DNA of 64,000 nucleotides. Source: Oceanicola sp. 22II-s10i (GTDB lineage Bacteria; Pseudomonadota; Alphaproteobacteria; Rhodobacterales; Rhodobacteraceae). The first letter of the stretch is position 1. Every line of letters starts with the position of its first letter. Below are positions 21,972 through 56,101 of this stretch, piece after piece. The stretch is taken from the NCBI RefSeq assembly GCF_002210105.1, contig NZ_AQQU01000001.1, forward strand, positions 718,501-782,500, in the 5' to 3' direction. The notes beneath the pieces are model-generated. The model saw nothing but the letters and a program-made list of their open reading frames with translations, was not told the DNA's origin and made no database searches. The translations under genes were made by a program, and so were the position numbers.

Positions 21972-22801
21972 GGATACACTGCCCGTCTGAGATCCGCGTC
22001 CACCTGCGGCCGGATGCCGAACCAGCGCTCGAATGCGGGCACGGCCTGATGAAACAGCATGCCCAGACCGTCGACCGCCGTGCAACCCTTGCGCTCTGCC
22101 TCGGCCAGCAGGCCGGTCTTGAGCGGGGCATAGACGAGATCGGTCACGACCTGTCCCGCGTGCAGTCCATCCAACGGCACCCGCAACGGCGGCTTGCCCT
22201 CCATCCCGAGCGAGGTGGTGTTCACCACAAGCGCGGCCTCCTCGATCATGTCGCCGGCCTTGACCCATTCGACGACCTGAACCCGCTTGCCGAAATCCTG
22301 CGCCAGTTTCTCGGCCCGCAGCCGGGTGCGGTTGGCGATCCAGACCTCTGGCACGCCCTTGTCGATCAGCGCCGAAACCACCGCCCGCGCCGCGCCGCCC
22401 GCGCCAAGGATGGCCGCCGGGCCCGCTGCCGGGTTCCACCCCGGTGCGCCCTGATGCAGGTTCTCGATGAAACCATACCCATCTGTATTGTCGGCATGAA
22501 TCTTGCCGTCACGACGGAAAATCAAGGTGTTGGCCGCCCCCATGAGGATCGCGCGGTCGGTCAGCAGGTCCGCGATCTTCATCACCGCTTCCTTGTGCGG
22601 GACGGTGATGTTGACCCCGACAAAGCCCATCCGGGGCAGGGTGCGCAGAACGGTTTCCAGATCGGCCGGGTCCACATCCATCGGAATGTAGTGCCCCCGG
22701 ATGCCATGCCGGCGCAGCCAGTGGCCATGCAGGGCAGGGGATCGGGAATGGGCGATCGGATGGCCGATGACACCGGCGAGGGGGATTTTCAGTGCGCTCA
22801 T
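21968..22801 (-). CDS. aroE: shikimate dehydrogenase
   Basis: A 277-residue NADPH-dependent enzyme of the shikimate pathway. The substrate-binding block is GHPIAHSRSPALHGHW and the catalytic Lys is in NITVPHKE. The nucleotide-binding loop is ILGAGGAARAV, followed by the NADPH-selecting NRT. The long upstream extension of this frame is antisense or out-of-frame with maf; the ATG at 22801 overlaps the maf stop by 4 bp. Confidence 0.95.
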   Translation of the reverse strand: MSALKIPLAGVIGHPIAHSRSPALHGHWLRRHGIRGHYIPMDVDPADLETVLRTLPRMGFVGVNITVPHKEAVMKIADLLTDRAILMGAANTLIFRRDGKIHADNTDGYGFIENLHQGAPGWNPAAGPAAILGAGGAARAVVSALIDKGVPEVWIANRTRLRAEKLAQDFGKRVQVVEWVKAGDMIEEAALVVNTTSLGMEGKPPLRVPLDGLHAGQVVTDLVYAPLKTGLLAEAERKGCTAVDGLGMLFHQAVPAFERWFGIRPQVDADLRRAVYP

Positions 22802-23397
22802 CCGTCGATCAGACCCCGTGTGATCAGGTAATTGAGCAGCGGCAACAGCGGCATGCCCAGGATCGCAAAGTAATCGCCAGTGATCGCCGAGAACAAGCGG
22901 ATCCCTTCGCCCTCGACATGATAGGCCCCGACCGCCCCCTGCACGGCGGGCCAGTTCCGGTCCAGGTAGCTGTCGATGTAACTGTCCGTGAGGGTGCGCA
23001 TCTGCAGTTTCACTTCGGTGACATGACGCCAGACCGGCCTGCCGTCCTCGCAGATCACGGCGGCGGATAACAGCGAATGCCGCAGGCCGGACAGTTGCCG
23101 GAGCGTGTCGCGCGCGTCCTCTCGGGTTTCGGCCTTGGCGAACACGGTGCGGTCCAGGGCAAGGATCTGGTCCGACCCGATCACCAGGTCGCCGGGCTGG
23201 CGCTGGCTGACCCGGAGCGCCTTCATCTCGGCCAGCGCATCGGACATGTCGCGGGGCGAAACTTCCTCGACCGCGAGCGAGGCGCGGAGGGCTTCTTCGT
23301 CGACGCGGGGCGTGATCGCCGTGAACGGAACCCCGGCGTTCCGCAGCATCCCGGCGCGGGTGGCGGAACCGGAGGCAAGGACGATCCCCTGTGCCAT
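22798..23397 (-). CDS. Maf family nucleotide pyrophosphatase
   Basis: A 199-residue Maf-fold protein that hydrolyses non-canonical nucleoside triphosphates. Visible motifs are IVLASGSATRAGML near the start, VDEEALRASL, and VIGSDQILALD. The frame is open to 23448, but the Met at 23397 fits the family. It is the first gene left of the probable replication origin and leads the minus-strand operon maf-aroE-coaE-dnaQ. In Caulobacter this same operon lies beside the origin. Confidence 0.92.
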   Translation of the reverse strand: MAQGIVLASGSATRAGMLRNAGVPFTAITPRVDEEALRASLAVEEVSPRDMSDALAEMKALRVSQRQPGDLVIGSDQILALDRTVFAKAETREDARDTLRQLSGLRHSLLSAAVICEDGRPVWRHVTEVKLQMRTLTDSYIDSYLDRNWPAVQGAVGAYHVEGEGIRLFSAITGDYFAILGMPLLPLLNYLITRGLIDG

Positions 23398-23813
23398 GTT
23401 GATAAGTCCTGAATAGAATATGTAGGGCCGTGTGCGTGGTTCTGGCAAAAGGCCCGCGGCGATGCAAGGCGGGGGACAACCCGGCCCTTATGCACCGTCG
23501 TCCCGGTTTCATCCATGGGTGGAAAAGGATAACCGCGTCATCCACAGTTCAGCGATCACTCACTGAGTCCCCCGAAGTTTCATCCACCGGCGCCATGGGG
23601 GGAATACGCCTGATAATTATTTGAAATTTATAGGTTATCTGAGTTTGCCCAAATGTTGCCACAATTCGTCAACAGGGTTGTCAACATCTGCGCGGGGCTG
23701 TGGCCCATTCCTGTGTAACCATTTGATCCACAGGATCCGGCCCCCCCTACATCATCATCTATATCTTTTTCTTTTCTTTTATTATGAGAAGCGCGAAGCC
23801 GAAGGACCCGCCC
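23398..23813. other. oriC: probable chromosomal replication origin (oriC)
   Basis: This 416 bp gap between the divergent maf and hemJ genes is the only gene-free stretch over 300 bp in the window. It holds near-consensus DnaA boxes (consensus TTATNCACA, one mismatch each): TTATGCACC 23488-23496, TCATCCACA 23538-23546 and TGATCCACA 23724-23732. A weaker copy is TCATCCACC at 23580-23588. An AT-rich segment (23611-23640, 25 of 30 A/T) could be the unwinding element, and a GANTC methylation site lies at 23565-23569. A polypyrimidine tract runs up to hemJ. The maf-aroE-coaE-dnaQ-secB flank matches the origin region of Caulobacter, and parAB with parS lies within 5 kb. Confidence 0.75.
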
Positions 23814-24263
23814 ATGACCGACATTCTTGCCAGCCTGTATCCATGGACCAAGGCGCTTCATATCGTGTCGGTCGTGGCATGGATGGCGGGCATCTTTTAC
23901 CTGCCCCGTCTGTTTGTCTATCATGCAGAGAAGATCACCGCGGGGACGGAGACCGATGCGCTGTTCCAGGAGATGGAGCGCAAGCTGCTGCGGCTGATCA
24001 TGAACCCCTCGATGATTGCGACATGGGTCTTCGGCCTGATGCTGATGTTCACGCCCGGGATCGTGGACTGGGGCATGGTCTGGCCCTGGACCAAGGCGGC
24101 GGGCGTTGTGGCGATGACGTGGTTTCATCACTGGCTGGGGCTGCGGCGCAAGGATTTCGCGGCGGGGCGGAACAGCCTGCCGGGACGGCGCTACCGGATG
24201 ATGAACGAATTGCCGACGCTGCTGTTGGTGCTGATCGTCTTCTCGGTGGTGTTGAAATTCTAG
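23814..24263 (+). CDS. hemJ: HemJ protoporphyrinogen IX oxidase
   Basis: A 149-residue integral membrane protein with four predicted membrane segments, the HemJ type of protoporphyrinogen oxidase in haem synthesis. The conserved His lies in [11 protein letters not shown], the conserved Arg in [12 protein letters not shown], and the conserved Lys in WPWTKAAGV. The frame opens at 23784; the Met at 23814 is chosen because it gives the family start. It is the first gene right of the probable origin. HemH, another haem enzyme, is at 59.7 kb, and the HemW at 31.5 kb belongs to the haem-chaperone family. Confidence 0.92.
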
Positions 24264-26985: not shown

Positions 26986-28860
26986 GTGTTTCACGTGGAA
27001 CATTCTTTTGACATAATCGTCATAGGCGGGGGCCATGCAGGCAGCGAGGCTGCTCACGCATCGGCCCGCCTTGGCGCACGCACGGCTTTGATCACGCTGA
27101 AGCGGGATGGCATCGGAGTCATGTCCTGCAATCCGGCTATTGGCGGTTTGGGAAAGGGACACCTCGTTCGCGAGATCGACGCAATGGACGGCGTCATGGG
27201 TCGCGTTGCGGATATGGCTGGTATCCAGTTCCGTTTGCTGAATCGCCGCAAGGGGCCGGCAGTCCAGGGCCCCAGGGCACAAGCGGATCGCAAGATCTAT
27301 CGCGAGGCGATGCTGGCGGAGATGGAAAAGGCGCCTAACCTCACGATTGTCGAGGGGGAGGTCGTCGATCTCGTCATGGAGAAAAACCGGGTGGCAGGCG
27401 TTGTCCTGCTGGACGGTAGTATTTTGCATTCCCGTGCGGTGGTGCTGACCACCGGAACCTTCCTGCGCGGAGTGATTCATATCGGTGATGTGTCCCGCCC
27501 GGGCGGCCGAATGGGAGACAAGCCCTCGGTCAAACTGGCAGAACGGATCGACGCGTTTGGTTTGCCATTGGGGCGGCTCAAGACCGGTACCCCGCCACGG
27601 CTGGACGGGCGAACCATTGATTGGGATATCCTGGAAACTCAACCCGGTGACGATGAGCCCGTGATGTTCTCGTTCCTGAACAGCACACCCGTGGCGCGTC
27701 AGGTGAATTGCGGGATCACGCATACGAACGAACGAACCCACGATATTATTCGTCGGAACCTTGATCGGTCGGCGATGTACGGCGGGCACATCTCTGGCGT
27801 CGGGCCCCGCTACTGCCCGTCGATCGAAGACAAGGTTGTTCGATTTGCAGAAAAGACGGGGCACCAGGTCTTTCTGGAGCCGGAAGGTCTGAACGACGAT
27901 ACCGTGTATCCCAACGGAATTTCCACCTCGCTGCCGGAGGATGTGCAGGAGGCCTATGTTCATTCGATCCGTGGTCTGGAAGAAGCGAGAATACTGCAGC
28001 CGGGCTATGCCATTGAATACGATTACGTTGATCCGCGCGCGCTCGACCTGCGGCTGGCTGTGAAGTCCGTGCCCGGCTTATATCTGGCGGGGCAGATCAA
28101 TGGCACCACTGGATATGAAGAGGCCGCGGCACAGGGGTTGGTTGCCGGCCTGAATGCGGCCGCAGAAAGCCTGAATCTTCCGCGGGTCGAGTTCAGCCGT
28201 TCGGACTCCTACATCGGCGTCATGATCGACGATCTTACGACGCGCGGTGTTACCGAACCTTATCGCATGTTTACGTCACGGGCCGAGTTCCGGTTGTCTC
28301 TGCGTGCCGACAATGCGGATCAGCGCTTGACGGAACGAGGGATTGCGATCGGATGTGTCGGAGACGTGCGTGCCAGGAAGTTCGCTGACAAAATGGATGC
28401 CTTGGCGTCCGGTCGCGGGATGCTTGAGGATGGGACTTTCACACCTTCTGACCTGGGGCGGGCCGGCCTGTCACTCGGTCAGGATGGCACGCGGCGCACG
28501 TTGTACCAGGTTCTCGCATTTCCCGATGTAGAACTTGGTGATCTCGTTCCGTTGAATGAATCGCTGAGGGATCTGCCATCGCACATCGGGCGTCAGCTCA
28601 AGATCGATGCGACCTACGCCAATTATATCGCCCGTCAAACGCGAGATGTTGAGGCGCTGAAGCGGGACGAAGCGCTGATCCTCGGTTCCGATGTTGATTA
28701 TATGGCGATCGACGGCTTGTCCAACGAACTGAAGCTGAAGCTCACGCAAGTCCGGCCCGAAAATATCGGACAGGCGGCACGTATCGACGGAATGACTCCG
28801 GCGGCGTTGACGTTGTTGTTGGCCCGTCTGCGTCGAACGCAGCGAGATCTTTCAGCATGA
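26986..28860 (+). CDS. mnmG: MnmG (GidA) tRNA-modification FAD enzyme
   Basis: A 624-residue FAD-dependent partner of MnmE. The dinucleotide-binding start is [19 protein letters not shown], followed by the family block [19 protein letters not shown] and later [11 protein letters not shown]. It starts with GTG: the first residues MFHVEH are read from a DNA site that is also a parS-like palindrome (26987-27002). The preceding mnmE stop is 2 bp away and the rsmG start overlaps its end by 4 bp, so translation is probably coupled. Confidence 0.97.
26987..27002. promoter_or_regulatory. parS: parS-like site over the mnmG start
   Basis: TGTTTCACGTGGAACA differs from the perfect parS palindrome TGTTTCACGTGAAACA at one base. 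Read on the other strand it is TGTTCCACGTGAAACA, the form known from Bacillus. It covers the GTG start codon of mnmG, so ParB binding and initiation of transcription or translation may interfere. Confidence 0.85.
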
Positions 28861-29468
28861 ATGATCAAGTGGGGTTCGTGGGCGATGTTTCACGTGAAAC
28901 AATCGAACGCCTGAAAATCTACGCGGAGCTGCTCCAGAAGTGGAATCCGAAGATCAACATGGTGGCTCCGGCCACGCTCCCGGACCTCTGGACGCGTCAT
29001 ATTGCGGATTCCCAACAGATCTCTTTCATACAACCCCTGAATGGCCAATGGCTGGACCTCGGGAGCGGCGGTGGATTCCCCGGCATCGTTCTAGCCATTC
29101 TTGGTGCAGAGGATGCTGATTTTCATATGACGCTGATGGAATCCGATCAGCGCAAGTGCTCCTTCCTGGCGACCGTTCTTCGCGAGACCGGCGTATCGGC
29201 AAAGGTGGTTGACGCTCGGATAGAAGTTGCGCCGCCCGCTGGGGTGGATGTCCTGACGGCGCGGGCATTGGCACCGCTCGTCAAGCTGCTGGAATACGCG
29301 GAGCGGCACCTGAAACCGGATGGCACGGCACTTTTCCCAAAGGGGGAGAGCTGGAAAACGGAAATCGCCAAGGCCGAAGAACATTGGCGCTTTGACTGGG
29401 TGGCAACGCCGAGTACTACAAACAAGGGATCAGTAGTCCTGAAAGTGGGAGCCCGCCACCGTGTCTGA
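28857..29468 (+). CDS. rsmG: RsmG (GidB) 16S rRNA methyltransferase
   Basis: A 203-residue SAM-dependent enzyme that makes 7-methylguanosine at position 527 of 16S rRNA; its loss gives low-level streptomycin resistance in other bacteria. The SAM loop is [12 protein letters not shown] perfect parS palindrome is embedded in codons 10-15, which read DVSRET. The gene overlaps mnmG by 4 bp and parA by 8 bp. Confidence 0.96.
28886..28901. promoter_or_regulatory. parS: parS centromere site (perfect)
   Basis: TGTTTCACGTGAAACA is a perfect 16 bp palindrome identical to the consensus ParB-binding site. It lies inside the rsmG coding sequence, about 1.4 kb upstream of parB and about 5.2 kb from the probable oriC. 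ParB should load here and spread to organise origin segregation. Confidence 0.96.
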
Positions 29469-30270
29469 CGTATTCCGAGCCCGCCAGCCCAAGATCATGG
29501 CGATTGCCAACCAGAAGGGCGGCGTCGGCAAGACCACGACCACCATCAACCTCGCCGCGGCCCTGGCCGAGGTTGGAAGCCGCGTGCTGATCGTGGACCT
29601 TGATCCCCAGGGGAATGCGTCAACCGGATTGGGGGTCGAGTCGGACGAACGCACCTATACGACGTACGATCTCCTGCTCGGAGATATCGCCCTGACCGAG
29701 ATCATTCTGACCACGGATATCGAAAATCTCCACATCATCCCGGCGACAGTGGACCTCAGCTCTGCCGACCTCGAATTGATGTCGAATGAAAAACGCAGCT
29801 TCCTCCTGCATGACGCCTTGCGCCAGCCCGCCATCGAGCCGTTGGCCTACGACTTCATCCTGATCGACTGCCCGCCCTCGCTGAACCTGCTCACTGTCAA
29901 TGCGATGGTGGCGTCCGATTCCGTCCTGGTTCCCCTGCAGAGCGAGTTCTTCGCCCTCGAAGGTCTGTCGCAACTTATCCTGACCATCCGCGAGGTTCGC
30001 CAGTCGGCCAACCCCGCGCTGCAGGTCGAAGGCGTGGTTCTGACGATGTATGATCGGCGCAACAACCTGTCCCAACAGGTCGAAGCGGACGCCCGAGACA
30101 ATCTGGGTGCTATGGTGTTCAACACGGTGATCCCGCGCAATGTCCGTGTGAGCGAGGCGCCGTCGCATGCCATGCCGGTGTTGAATTACGATACAGCATC
30201 CAAGGGCGCGGAAGCGTACCGCAGCCTTGCACTGGAAATCCTGCAACGCCAGGCCGGCGCAGCAGCCTGA
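29461..30270 (+). CDS. parA: ParA chromosome-partitioning ATPase
   Basis: A 269-residue Walker-type ATPase that moves ParB-parS complexes to segregate the chromosome origin. The deviant Walker A is KGGVGKTT (residues 19-26), Walker B is FILIDCPPSLN. It starts with GTG and overlaps rsmG by 8 bp. It is followed 13 bp later by parB with a good ribosome site. The short N terminus, without an HTH extension, matches chromosomal rather than type Ia plasmid ParA. Confidence 0.96.
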   Translation: MSDVFRARQPKIMAIANQKGGVGKTTTTINLAAALAEVGSRVLIVDLDPQGNASTGLGVESDERTYTTYDLLLGDIALTEIILTTDIENLHIIPATVDLSSADLELMSNEKRSFLLHDALRQPAIEPLAYDFILIDCPPSLNLLTVNAMVASDSVLVPLQSEFFALEGLSQLILTIREVRQSANPALQVEGVVLTMYDRRNNLSQQVEADARDNLGAMVFNTVIPRNVRVSEAPSHAMPVLNYDTASKGAEAYRSLALEILQRQAGAAA

Positions 30271-30283
30271 AGGGAGAGAGCAG

Positions 30284-31186
30284 ATGAATGACACAACAAA
30301 ACGCCGGGGTCTGGGCCGCGGATTGTCTGCGCTCATGGCCGATGTCAGCCAGGACAGCACGACCGGCCAGCCCGAAGCGCCGCGCCGGGCGGACCTTTTC
30401 GTGCCAATTGAACAGATCGCTCCGAACCCGGATCAGCCGCGCCGGACGTTCAGCGAGGATGCGTTGAACGAACTGTCCTCGTCGGTCCGTGAAAAGGGGA
30501 TCATTCAGCCCCTCATAGTCCGGGAAAAAGAGAACGGAGCGGCCCGGTACGAAATCGTCGCGGGTGAGCGGCGGTGGCGCGCGGCGCAGCGGGCCCAACT
30601 GCACGAGGTCCCCGTGATCGTTCGCGCTTTCGATGATACCGAAGTGCTCGAAGTTGCGATCATCGAGAATATCCAACGCGCCGATCTGAACCCGATCGAA
30701 GAGGCGGCAGGGTATCGTCAACTGATGGACCGGTTCGGTCATACGCAAGAGAAATTGGCCGAGGCCCTCGGGAAAAGCAGAAGCCATATCGCGAACCTGT
30801 TGCGCCTTCTGCATCTGCCTGATCAGGTCCAGTCCATGCTTCGCGACGGCCAATTGTCGATGGGTCACGCAAGGGCTCTGATCACGGCGTCTGATCCGGT
30901 CGCGCTCGCCCGCCAAGTTGTCGATCGGGGGCTTTCGGTGCGCGAAGCTGAAAAGCTGGCCAAGCCCGCTGAAACGGGAGCGGCTCAGCCTCGCAGTTCC
31001 AAGCCACGCGCTGGCGCCGAGAAAGACGCGGACACCCGCGCGCTCGAGGCGGATCTGAGTGCGGCGATCGGTATGCAAGTCAGCATCGACCACAAGCCTG
31101 GGACCGAGGCGGGATCGCTGACGGTCAGCTACGAGAACTTTGATGGTCTCGACGCGCTCTGCCGTCTGCTCAACGCGGGCCGTTAG
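30284..31186 (+). CDS. parB: ParB centromere-binding protein
   Basis: A 300-residue CTP-dependent clamp that binds parS. Visible parts in order: the ParA-stimulating N terminus RRGLGRGLSALM (residues 7-18), the CTP-binding box GERRWRA (94-100), ENIQRADLNP (128-137), the helix-turn-helix around GHTQEKLAEALGKSRSHIANL (152-172), and a C-terminal dimerisation domain. A strong ribosome site (AGGGAGAG) lies before the ATG at 30284. It converges on the DUF454 gene with a 17 bp overlap. Confidence 0.96.
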   Translation: MNDTTKRRGLGRGLSALMADVSQDSTTGQPEAPRRADLFVPIEQIAPNPDQPRRTFSEDALNELSSSVREKGIIQPLIVREKENGAARYEIVAGERRWRAAQRAQLHEVPVIVRAFDDTEVLEVAIIENIQRADLNPIEEAAGYRQLMDRFGHTQEKLAEALGKSRSHIANLLRLLHLPDQVQSMLRDGQLSMGHARALITASDPVALARQVVDRGLSVREAEKLAKPAETGAAQPRSSKPRAGAEKDADTRALEADLSAAIGMQVSIDHKPGTEAGSLTVSYENFDGLDALCRLLNAGR

Positions 31187-54257: not shown

Positions 54258-56101
54258 TCGCACCGGTTCGCAAGCTTCTGTCGATGATCGACGCCTTTCG
54301 CCCGGCCGACGGGCCGCCGCCCTCGCGGCTGTTCCCCTTCGTCCGCTGGGCGCTGCGCGGCGCTGGCCCGGCGCTGGCGCTGACCTACGGCATCTCGCTT
54401 CTGGCGGGCTCGACCGAGGTCTTCGCGGCCTGGTTGACCGGCTGGGTCATCGACACGGCGACGGAGCAGGGGCCGGGCGACTTGATCACGCTCTACTGGC
54501 CGCTTCTGCTGGCGATGGCGCTGTTCTACCTCGCCGTCCGACCAGTGATCTTTGCCGTCGATTCAGCGACGACCAGCTTGCTGATCGGCCCGCACCTGTT
54601 CCCGCTGATCCTGCAACGGCTGAACCGCTGGACGCTGGGTCATTCGATGCGGTTCTTCGACAACGATTTCGCCGGGCGGATCAGCCAGAAGGCGATGCAG
54701 ACCGCCCGCGCGCTGACCGACATCGTGTTGGAGTTCTCGGACGCGTTTTTCTACGGCTTCGCGATCTTCATCGGGACGATGTTCCTGCTGGCCTCGATCG
54801 ACGCGCGGCTGCTGCTGGGGTTCATCGTCTGGGGCGCGTTCTATATCGCCGCGCTGGTGTGGTTCATCCCGCGCGTGCAGGCGAGCGCGGCACATCGCGC
54901 GGGGGCACGGGCCGCGGTGACGGGGCAGGTGGTCGACACGCTGTCGAACATCACGACGGTCAAGCTTTTCGCGCATCACGACCACGAGGACCGTGCGACC
55001 CTGTCCGCGCTGAAACGGTTCCTCGAACGGGCGCTCGACTTCGGGATGCTGTCGGTGACCTATCGGCTGGTGCTGCTGACGCTGGGCGGGCTGCTGCCGC
55101 TGATCGCACTTGGCGGGTCGCTGTGGCTCTGGTCGCGCGGCGCGGCGACGGCGGGGGACATCGCGATGGCGTCCATGGCCTCGACCCGGCTGTCGATGGT
55201 GACGAACCGGATGGGCCGGGCGGCGGTGTCGATCTTCACCAACCTCGGCGAGGTGCAGGACGGGATCGCGACCCTGACCCCGCCGCACGAGATTGCGGAT
55301 CGCGAGGGCGCGGCGACCGAGGCGCCGTTGCGCGACGGGCTGCGGTTCGAGCATCTGACATTCACCTTCGGGCGGCCCGGCCAGCCGGCGCTGGACGACT
55401 TCGACCTGACCGTGAAACCGGGCGAGAAGATCGCGCTGGTCGGTGCCTCGGGCGCGGGGAAATCGACGGCGATGTCGCTGCTGCTGCGGCTGTATGACGT
55501 GGAACAGGGTCGCATTCTGTTCGGCGGCACCGACATCCGCGACATCACGCAGGAGGCGCTGCGGCGGCAGATCGCTGTGGTCCGGCAGGAGACGGCGATG
55601 TTCAATCGCTCCGCGCTGGAGAACATCCGCTATGGCCGTCCCGAGGCGACGGATGCCGAGGTCGAGGAGGCCGCGCGCAATGCCGCCGCCGACGGCTTCA
55701 TCCGCGAGCTGCGCGATCACCGCGGGCGCGAGGGGTATGACGCGCATCTGGGTGAGCGGGGCGTGAAGCTGTCGGGCGGACAGCGGCAGCGGGTGGCGAT
55801 CGCGCGGGCGATCCTCAAGGACGCGCCGGTGCTGGTGCTGGACGAGGCGACATCGGCGCTGGATTCCGAGGTCGAGGCCGAGATCCAGGAGGCGCTGGAG
55901 CGGGTGATGCGCGGCAAGACCGTTATCGCCATCGCGCACCGGCTGTCGACGATCAGCCACATGGACCGGATCGTTGTCATGGACGCGGGCCGGATCGCCG
56001 AGAGCGGGACGCATGACGAGCTGCTGGCGCGCGACGGGCTATATGCCCGGTTCTGGTCGCGGCAGTCGGGCGGGTTCCTGAACGCGGATGCCGCCGAATA
56101 G
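54254..56101 (+). CDS. ABC half-transporter 2 (membrane plus ATPase)
   Basis: A 615-residue ABC exporter half, clearly a paralogue of the preceding gene: both begin with an IDAFRP segment and a W-x-LRGA start to the first membrane segment. The Walker A GASGAGKST, signature LSGGQRQR and Walker B LVLDEATSALDSE are intact, so both halves of the pair look catalytically competent. It overlaps its partner by 4 bp. The pair resembles MsbA-like lipid or drug exporters, with no substrate evidence. Confidence 0.9.
   Translation: MIAPVRKLLSMIDAFRPADGPPPSRLFPFVRWALRGAGPALALTYGISLLAGSTEVFAAWLTGWVIDTATEQGPGDLITLYWPLLLAMALFYLAVRPVIFAVDSATTSLLIGPHLFPLILQRLNRWTLGHSMRFFDNDFAGRISQKAMQTARALTDIVLEFSDAFFYGFAIFIGTMFLLASIDARLLLGFIVWGAFYIAALVWFIPRVQASAAHRAGARAAVTGQVVDTLSNITTVKLFAHHDHEDRATLSALKRFLERALDFGMLSVTYRLVLLTLGGLLPLIALGGSLWLWSRGAATAGDIAMASMASTRLSMVTNRMGRAAVSIFTNLGEVQDGIATLTPPHEIADREGAATEAPLRDGLRFEHLTFTFGRPGQPALDDFDLTVKPGEKIALVGASGAGKSTAMSLLLRLYDVEQGRILFGGTDIRDITQEALRRQIAVVRQETAMFNRSALENIRYGRPEATDAEVEEAARNAAADGFIRELRDHRGREGYDAHLGERGVKLSGGQRQRVAIARAILKDAPVLVLDEATSALDSEVEAEIQEALERVMRGKTVIAIAHRLSTISHMDRIVVMDAGRIAESGTHDELLARDGLYARFWSRQSGGFLNADAAE

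Follow-up and report, generated by a model that had tools for sequence, protein, structure and literature searches.

The maf-hemJ intergenic gap of Oceanicola sp. 22II-s10i as a very probable chromosomal replication origin with a putative DnaA unwinding module

The question raised by this locus is whether a gap between two divergent genes, 450 kb away from dnaA (C1:291275-292630), is the place at which replication of the chromosome begins. The analyzed stretch of 64,000 nucleotides (C1:718501-782500, the window) belongs to a contig of 1.596 Mb (C1) in an assembly of 39 contigs and 5.11 Mb; positions given without a contig are those of the window. An earlier note on this DNA had placed oriC in the 416 bases between maf and hemJ (23398-23813, no strand assigned). 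Judged by its sequence, this gap is very probably the replication start of the chromosome. The fuller reading, to which we give high confidence, is a chromosomal oriC that would combine mostly weak DnaA boxes, an IHF-type bend, an anchor box leading into a trinucleotide array and a T-rich opening site, and segregation by ParB-parS. The proposal of the note was upheld because the GC skew changes near the gap and not near dnaA, the gap holds the densest box cluster, its length and boxes are conserved, a module for unwinding lies beside hemJ and parS is found 5 kb away. Directly observed on the DNA are the location and conservation, the clustering of the boxes, the change of skew, the preferred spacing and the three-base register. 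Features of a DnaA-dependent oriC found by sequence are an intergenic box cluster, a change of strand composition on the own contig and an A/T-rich element next to a DnaA box.

Genes were named by their best NCBIfam match. The left boundary gene is maf (nucleotide pyrophosphatase; 22798-23397, minus strand), which matched PRK02478.1 with 205.6 bits, below the curated cut-off of 269. The right boundary gene is hemJ (23814-24263, plus strand), which matched TIGR00701 with 132.7 bits, below the cut-off of 138.05. Proteins of relatives align with Maf from the ATG with first base 23397 and with HemJ from 23814. The gene series maf, aroE, coaE, dnaQ and secB, named in the earlier note, was recovered on the left side; hemJ, rho, mnmE, mnmG, rsmG, parA and parB are found on the right, with ParA scoring below the curated cut-offs and ParB above that of TIGR00180. 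The nearby parAB-parS was likewise confirmed: parA-parB is located at 29461-31186 (plus strand) and a perfect parS, TGTTTCACGTGAAACA, at 28886-28901 (plus strand), approximately 5 kb from the gap. Another parS with one mismatch (26987-27002, plus strand) lies right where the mnmG open reading frame begins, and a third parS-like site at 55491 has three mismatches. Rfam gave no match at gathering scores in the whole window. A second, partial DnaA-family match of 44 bits, on a different contig (G000 C12:233152-233559), lies in an open frame of 232 aa, which is in the size range of the DnaA regulator Hda.

For comparison, HemJ was searched in 120 genomes of the family and was matched in 107 (own included), in some only weakly; the maf-hemJ arrangement is therefore not universal. 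The first 70 loci (own included) comprised 30 returned loci and 40 more, taken mostly by HemJ score order with some skipped. A further 80 were the best 80 of 384, e.g., from Pseudooceanicola, Maritimibacter, Actibacterium and Cereibacter, which gave a total of 150 loci, chosen with a bias towards genomes with a good HemJ match. Divergent orientation of maf and hemJ was found in 146 of these (own included). Removal of four loci without maf, four duplicate gaps and four gaps of odd length left 138 gaps, which include related and perhaps repeated species, hence, counts are not independent events. The gap measures 340-490 bp in 138 of 142 distinct gaps (own included). Among the odd lengths, L072, L096 and L104 have 1.2-1.4 kb between maf and hemJ, which may be due to an insertion beside or in the origin, and L088 has 175 bp.

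DnaA boxes were scored against TTATNCACA. No perfect copy is present in the gap, as noted earlier, and the three 9-mers with one mismatch reported before were found again on the plus strand: TTATGCACC at 23488-23496, TCATCCACA at 23538-23546 and TGATCCACA at 23724-23732. The last of these is the putative anchor box of the unwinding module and has the same letters as the Caulobacter G-box, a box of moderate affinity (PMC4285127). A fourth one-mismatch site, TTATCAACA (23397-23405, minus strand), was absent from the list of the earlier note; it touches the first base of the maf start codon and lies near the place where relatives keep minus-strand boxes. The weaker copy reported at 23580 is TCATCCACC (23580-23588, plus strand), which differs from TTATNCACA at two positions, and the consensus of the relatives at this place is close to TTATCCACA. 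Further weak boxes are TTTTCCACC (23518-23526, minus strand) at a conserved position and, on the plus strand, TCGTCAACA (23666-23674) and TTGTCAACA (23678-23686, two mismatches, near a preferred position); two alignments disagree as to which of the latter two is the conserved box.

The mere number of one-mismatch sites is not above chance (7 in the 64 kb; shuffle mean 8.55), and TGATCCACA alone is not rare, with 63 copies in the genome. Clustering was scanned in 40 stretches plus the window, which together make up 860 kb, roughly half the contig and one sixth of the genome. Among the 91 sites with at most one mismatch, four fall within 400 bp at the gap versus at most two elsewhere; no other place scanned is as dense in DnaA-box-like sites. 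The stretch at 280-300 kb around dnaA contains two box-like sites.

The boxes are also a property of the gap in relatives. With at most one mismatch, TTATNCACA occurs 450 times in 132 of the 138 gaps, compared to 44.3 (sd 6.2) in dinucleotide shuffles. Perfect boxes number 71 in 57 gaps (shuffles 1.6), which leaves 81 gaps (own included) without any. Boxes keep preferred distances from hemJ, and those at 23397, 23518, 23580, 23678 and 23724 of the window are on or near them; the box at 23488 is not at a preferred distance in the 138 gaps and is off the preferred plus-strand positions of the relatives. GANTC (CcrM) sites are not enriched on both strands of the 138 gaps (456 versus 499.7 in shuffles). 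Perfect TTAA-N7-TTAA sites of the CtrA type were found 38 times in 19 of the 138 gaps (3.9 in shuffles), and the gap of the window contains no such Caulobacter-type site with up to one mismatch. This suggests that CtrA may act at the origin in some members of the family, while others, such as the organism studied here, would do without.

A strongly conserved stretch beside hemJ became visible in the alignments, consisting of a box, about 13 nt, CTAC, CAT repeats and a T-rich tract. On the plus strand of the window, TGATCCACA is followed by a GC-rich spacer of 14 nt (GGATCCGGCCCCCC, 23733-23746), a DnaA-trio-like array CTA CAT CAT CAT CTA TAT (23747-23764; 3'-GAT GTA GTA GTA GAT ATA-5' on the other strand) and a T-rich tract (23765-23785), the candidate for first strand opening together with the array. 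An initial regular expression for this tract proved too strict, as it recovered 18 of 63 gaps, and looser ones were used instead. All module rules were written after viewing the same alignments; the counts are descriptive, not predictive. The loose pattern matched 101 of 138 gaps, with a peak at a spacer of 13 (56 of 101), which is the commonest spacer in the published survey of basal unwinding systems (BUS) as well. Pairs of CTA and CATC keep a three-base phase in 129 of 142 cases (78 of the 138 gaps), pairs of the same gap not being independent. A strict rule (box, spacer 12-14, at least three of four C[AT][AT] units) matched 83 of 138 gaps and failed in 55, whereas reverse complements gave no match and simple shuffles 0.2. 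When the 90 gaps with a single such box were anchored at this box, G made up at most 2% on the module strand from the 14th to the 36th base after it.

The hemE loci of other families are the nearest to an independent test of these rules. For this sample, 144 genomes were searched, 122 matched and 70 were taken; without two loci of the window's own family, which have no module and no boxes under a simpler rule, 68 remained. The strict rule matched upstream of hemE in 20 of these 68 other alphaproteobacteria (0.15 in shuffles, none in the reverse complement). One of the 20, L305, is far from the gene and looks like chance. CTA is commoner in the hemE modules (e.g., CTA CTA CAA CAA CTA), the second unit being CTA in 10 of 20 compared to 9 of the 83 maf-hemJ modules. 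Since the module is also found upstream of hemE, which adjoins the origins of Caulobacter and Rickettsia (PMC1914354), it appears to be tied to origins rather than to a single gene.

The layout of box, short GC-rich spacer, trinucleotide repeat and A/T-rich tract is shared with the basal unwinding system of Bacillus subtilis (DnaA-boxes 6/7; PMC8287927, PMC8235120, PMC10721633). There, box-bound DnaA is guided over the spacer onto DnaA-trios (3'-GAT-5', which is CTA on the opposite strand), captures two bases per trio and opens the DNA (PMC8287927, PMC6669920, PMC8235120, PMC10721633). A Bacillus-like mode of working may be assumed here because the anatomy of the module is the same: in the window, TGATCCACA is followed by a GC-rich spacer of 14 nt (limit 16) and by CTA CAT CAT CAT CTA. 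The units themselves differ. Bacillus trios have a middle adenine, which is contacted by Asn187 of DnaA, and a middle thymine weakens opening in Bacillus (PMC10721633), whereas after the first CTA the units of the family are mostly CAT or CAA, i.e., 3'-GTA/GTT-5' without a middle adenine, and DnaA has a tyrosine. Canonical CTA in two of the first three units was found in 8 of 138 gaps.

The DnaA of the window's genome carries Tyr at the place of the adenine-contacting Asn187 of Bacillus; at places 202 and 228, which contact guanine, it has Lys and Glu. Tyr was present in all 28 parsed family members (30 tried). The class sample, with 27 of 30 parsed, gave 25 Y, one F and one A, the latter (L326) being a mis-parse, as the printed fragment also reads FMY. 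In the phylum sample, 18 of the 19 parsed proteins (28 tried) have A, T, Q or S, and the nineteenth, with Y, is an alphaproteobacterium. Lys202 and Glu228 hardly vary across all three samples. The Tyr is shared by the whole class and is therefore no mark of the Rhodobacteraceae; Tyr-for-Asn was rejected as sole explanation of the CAT units of the family, since other alphaproteobacteria carry more CTA units despite the same residue. By sequence, the residue pattern agrees with a code whose only strictly read letter is the leading G. We tentatively propose, at somewhat less than even confidence, that the DnaA-trio code is changed in Rhodobacteraceae and, less markedly, in other alphaproteobacteria, with the leading 3'-G kept and a middle base of T or A, and that this goes with the Tyr, Lys and Glu of DnaA.

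A competitor of a changed code, itself rather unlikely, is a canonical DnaA-trio array read one base further (3'-TAG-5', with a middle adenine), so that little would differ from Bacillus. Read in the next frame, the repeat is ATC ATC ATC, which does place a middle adenine on the other strand, and a version of the published rule written by us (at least three 3'-NAN-5' units, spacer 0-16, box with at most two mismatches, one strand, last 150 nt) matched 53 of 138 gaps compared to 8 in shuffles. However, this rule misses the window itself, where three such units do not occur within 16 nt of the box, whereas a later version of the C[AT][AT] rule matched 84 of 138 gaps (own included) compared to 0.1 in shuffles, and 54 of 83 modules begin with a CTA unit that is in phase with the CATs after it.

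A different place of strand opening was implied before. The earlier note had listed an A/T segment at 23611-23640, by implication as unwinding region, and its A/T content of 25/30 is correct. A second A/T run, composed of 30-mers with at least 25/30, lies at 23754-23790 and was absent from that note; the window has no third place of this kind. The first segment contains TAATTATTTGAAA (23614-23626, plus strand), one mismatch from the IHF pattern YAANNNNTTGATW. Over the 138 gaps, YAANNNNTTGATW with at most one mismatch was found 135 times in 90 gaps (shuffles 63.5), and 83 of the 135 matches are concentrated 180-219 nt before hemJ, as is the site at 23614; for both reasons an IHF site is the likelier reading of 23611-23640. 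At 23716 the window has another one-mismatch match, with a counterpart in few relatives. The unwinding element is better sought at 23747-23785, which by sequence is likelier than 23611-23640. Quite improbable, though with points of its own, is an oriC that opens at 23611-23640, one of the two most A/T-rich places of the window, and in which the element beside hemJ is only the promoter and leader of hemJ; a leader would indeed sit there, and in the hemE loci the element also lies shortly before the gene. The conserved columns of 23611-23640, however, are TAA....TTGA, the IHF pattern, and the hemJ-side element stays 13-14 nt from a DnaA box, keeps its three-base phase and recurs in front of hemE, a different gene.

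Under the preferred reading with opening beside hemJ, the following course is suggested by analogy, as DnaA and IHF binding, strand opening, helicase loading and segregation are known from other bacteria. DnaA would bind the mostly weak boxes across the gap, helped by an IHF-type bend near 23614. The anchor box at 23724 would then guide DnaA over the 14-nt spacer onto one strand of the array (23747-23764), after which the adjoining T-rich tract could open and the helicase could be loaded. ParB-parS, 3-5 kb to the right, would segregate the copied origins.

A skew minimum elsewhere, for instance beside dnaA, had been named in the earlier note as evidence against an origin in the gap. In 46 pieces of C1, GC skew averages -0.018 over the 21 pieces to the left of the gap, 13 of them negative, and +0.032 over the 25 to its right, 20 of them positive (rank test P ~4e-6). 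The best split into two arms is at 718.5 kb, with 730.5, 700 and 742 kb almost equal; cumulative skew in 1-kb steps is near-flat between 700 and 742 kb, where it has a local minimum at 705 kb, and rises beyond 742 kb. The change on the own contig thus falls within about 40 kb of the gap and away from dnaA (291 kb), which lies deep within the negative-skew arm. With a resolution of about 40 kb, the skew of the own contig points to the gap rather than to dnaA. Among relatives with long contigs, the three that were sampled gave mixed results. G093 is in support: the cumulative minimum lies in the 820-840 kb stretch, 35-55 kb from hemJ, with 7 of 10 stretches positive to the right of hemJ and 7 of 10 negative to the left; its maf-hemJ gap has an odd length of 1400 bp. 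G013 is mixed, as skew changes sign at hemJ, from -0.034 at 1.10 Mb to between +0.03 and +0.06 at 1.18-1.25 Mb, and dips a second time at 1.28-1.34 Mb, nearer to its own dnaA (1.397 Mb) than to hemJ; this unevenness might be explained by a recently shuffled chromosome. G104, with its lowest point 300-500 kb from hemJ, is not in support. Contig C1 of G013 also has 14 short DnaA-family matches in a few equal-score groups, scattered over the chromosome, perhaps IS21-type helper ATPases.

That the gap is an ordinary divergent maf/hemJ promoter region with DnaA as transcription regulator, a role DnaA has in Caulobacter, and that oriC lies elsewhere, such as beside dnaA, is very improbable: the second dip of G013 and the remote minimum of G104 speak for it, and the position of dnaA within the negative-skew arm of the own contig, its two box-like sites and the densest scanned cluster in the gap against it.

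The gap, read as oriC, resembles Cori of Caulobacter crescentus, a member of the same class, in its weak DnaA boxes including TGATCCACA (one copy, 23724) and its candidate IHF site (23614) (PMC1914354, PMC4468827, PMC4285127). Cori is located between hemE and COG1806, whereas here the boundary is maf/hemJ and hemE (C1:1458320-1459327) is 716 kb away. The earlier note had deemed low-affinity boxes worth studying in themselves; their lack of a perfect copy stands, but weak G- and W-boxes have already been described at the Caulobacter origin (PMC4468827, PMC4285127). Within the family, Ori-Finder, guided by skew and parAB, has been used to predict oriC in 101 Rhodobacteraceae strains (PMC6699656); for Rhodobacter sphaeroides, the placing of oriC1 relied on skew and Ori-Finder (PMC6315104). 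These regions, apparently of the same family, share skew, DnaA boxes and parAB with the gap, and the main-text passages of the two papers give neither a maf/hemJ boundary nor an unwinding module. A position of parAB near the origin was reported for almost all alphaproteobacterial genomes analyzed in PMC8116508. In the literature searched (supplementary tables, DoriC and most subscription papers lay outside it), neither the maf-hemJ boundary nor the CAT-type repeat of the family was found described, which is no proof of novelty.

For the family, one pair of boundary genes and one spacing rule place the origin and the likely opening site in many members, and draft genomes can be used for this purpose. 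A changed trio code, if real, would mean that DnaA and the DNA letters it reads can drift together, and that some origins escape the published search rule. Such a code would be of the kind that the BUS authors suspect to exist, namely deviant trios without the middle adenine (PMC8287927), and a conjecture of the literature would thereby become testable.
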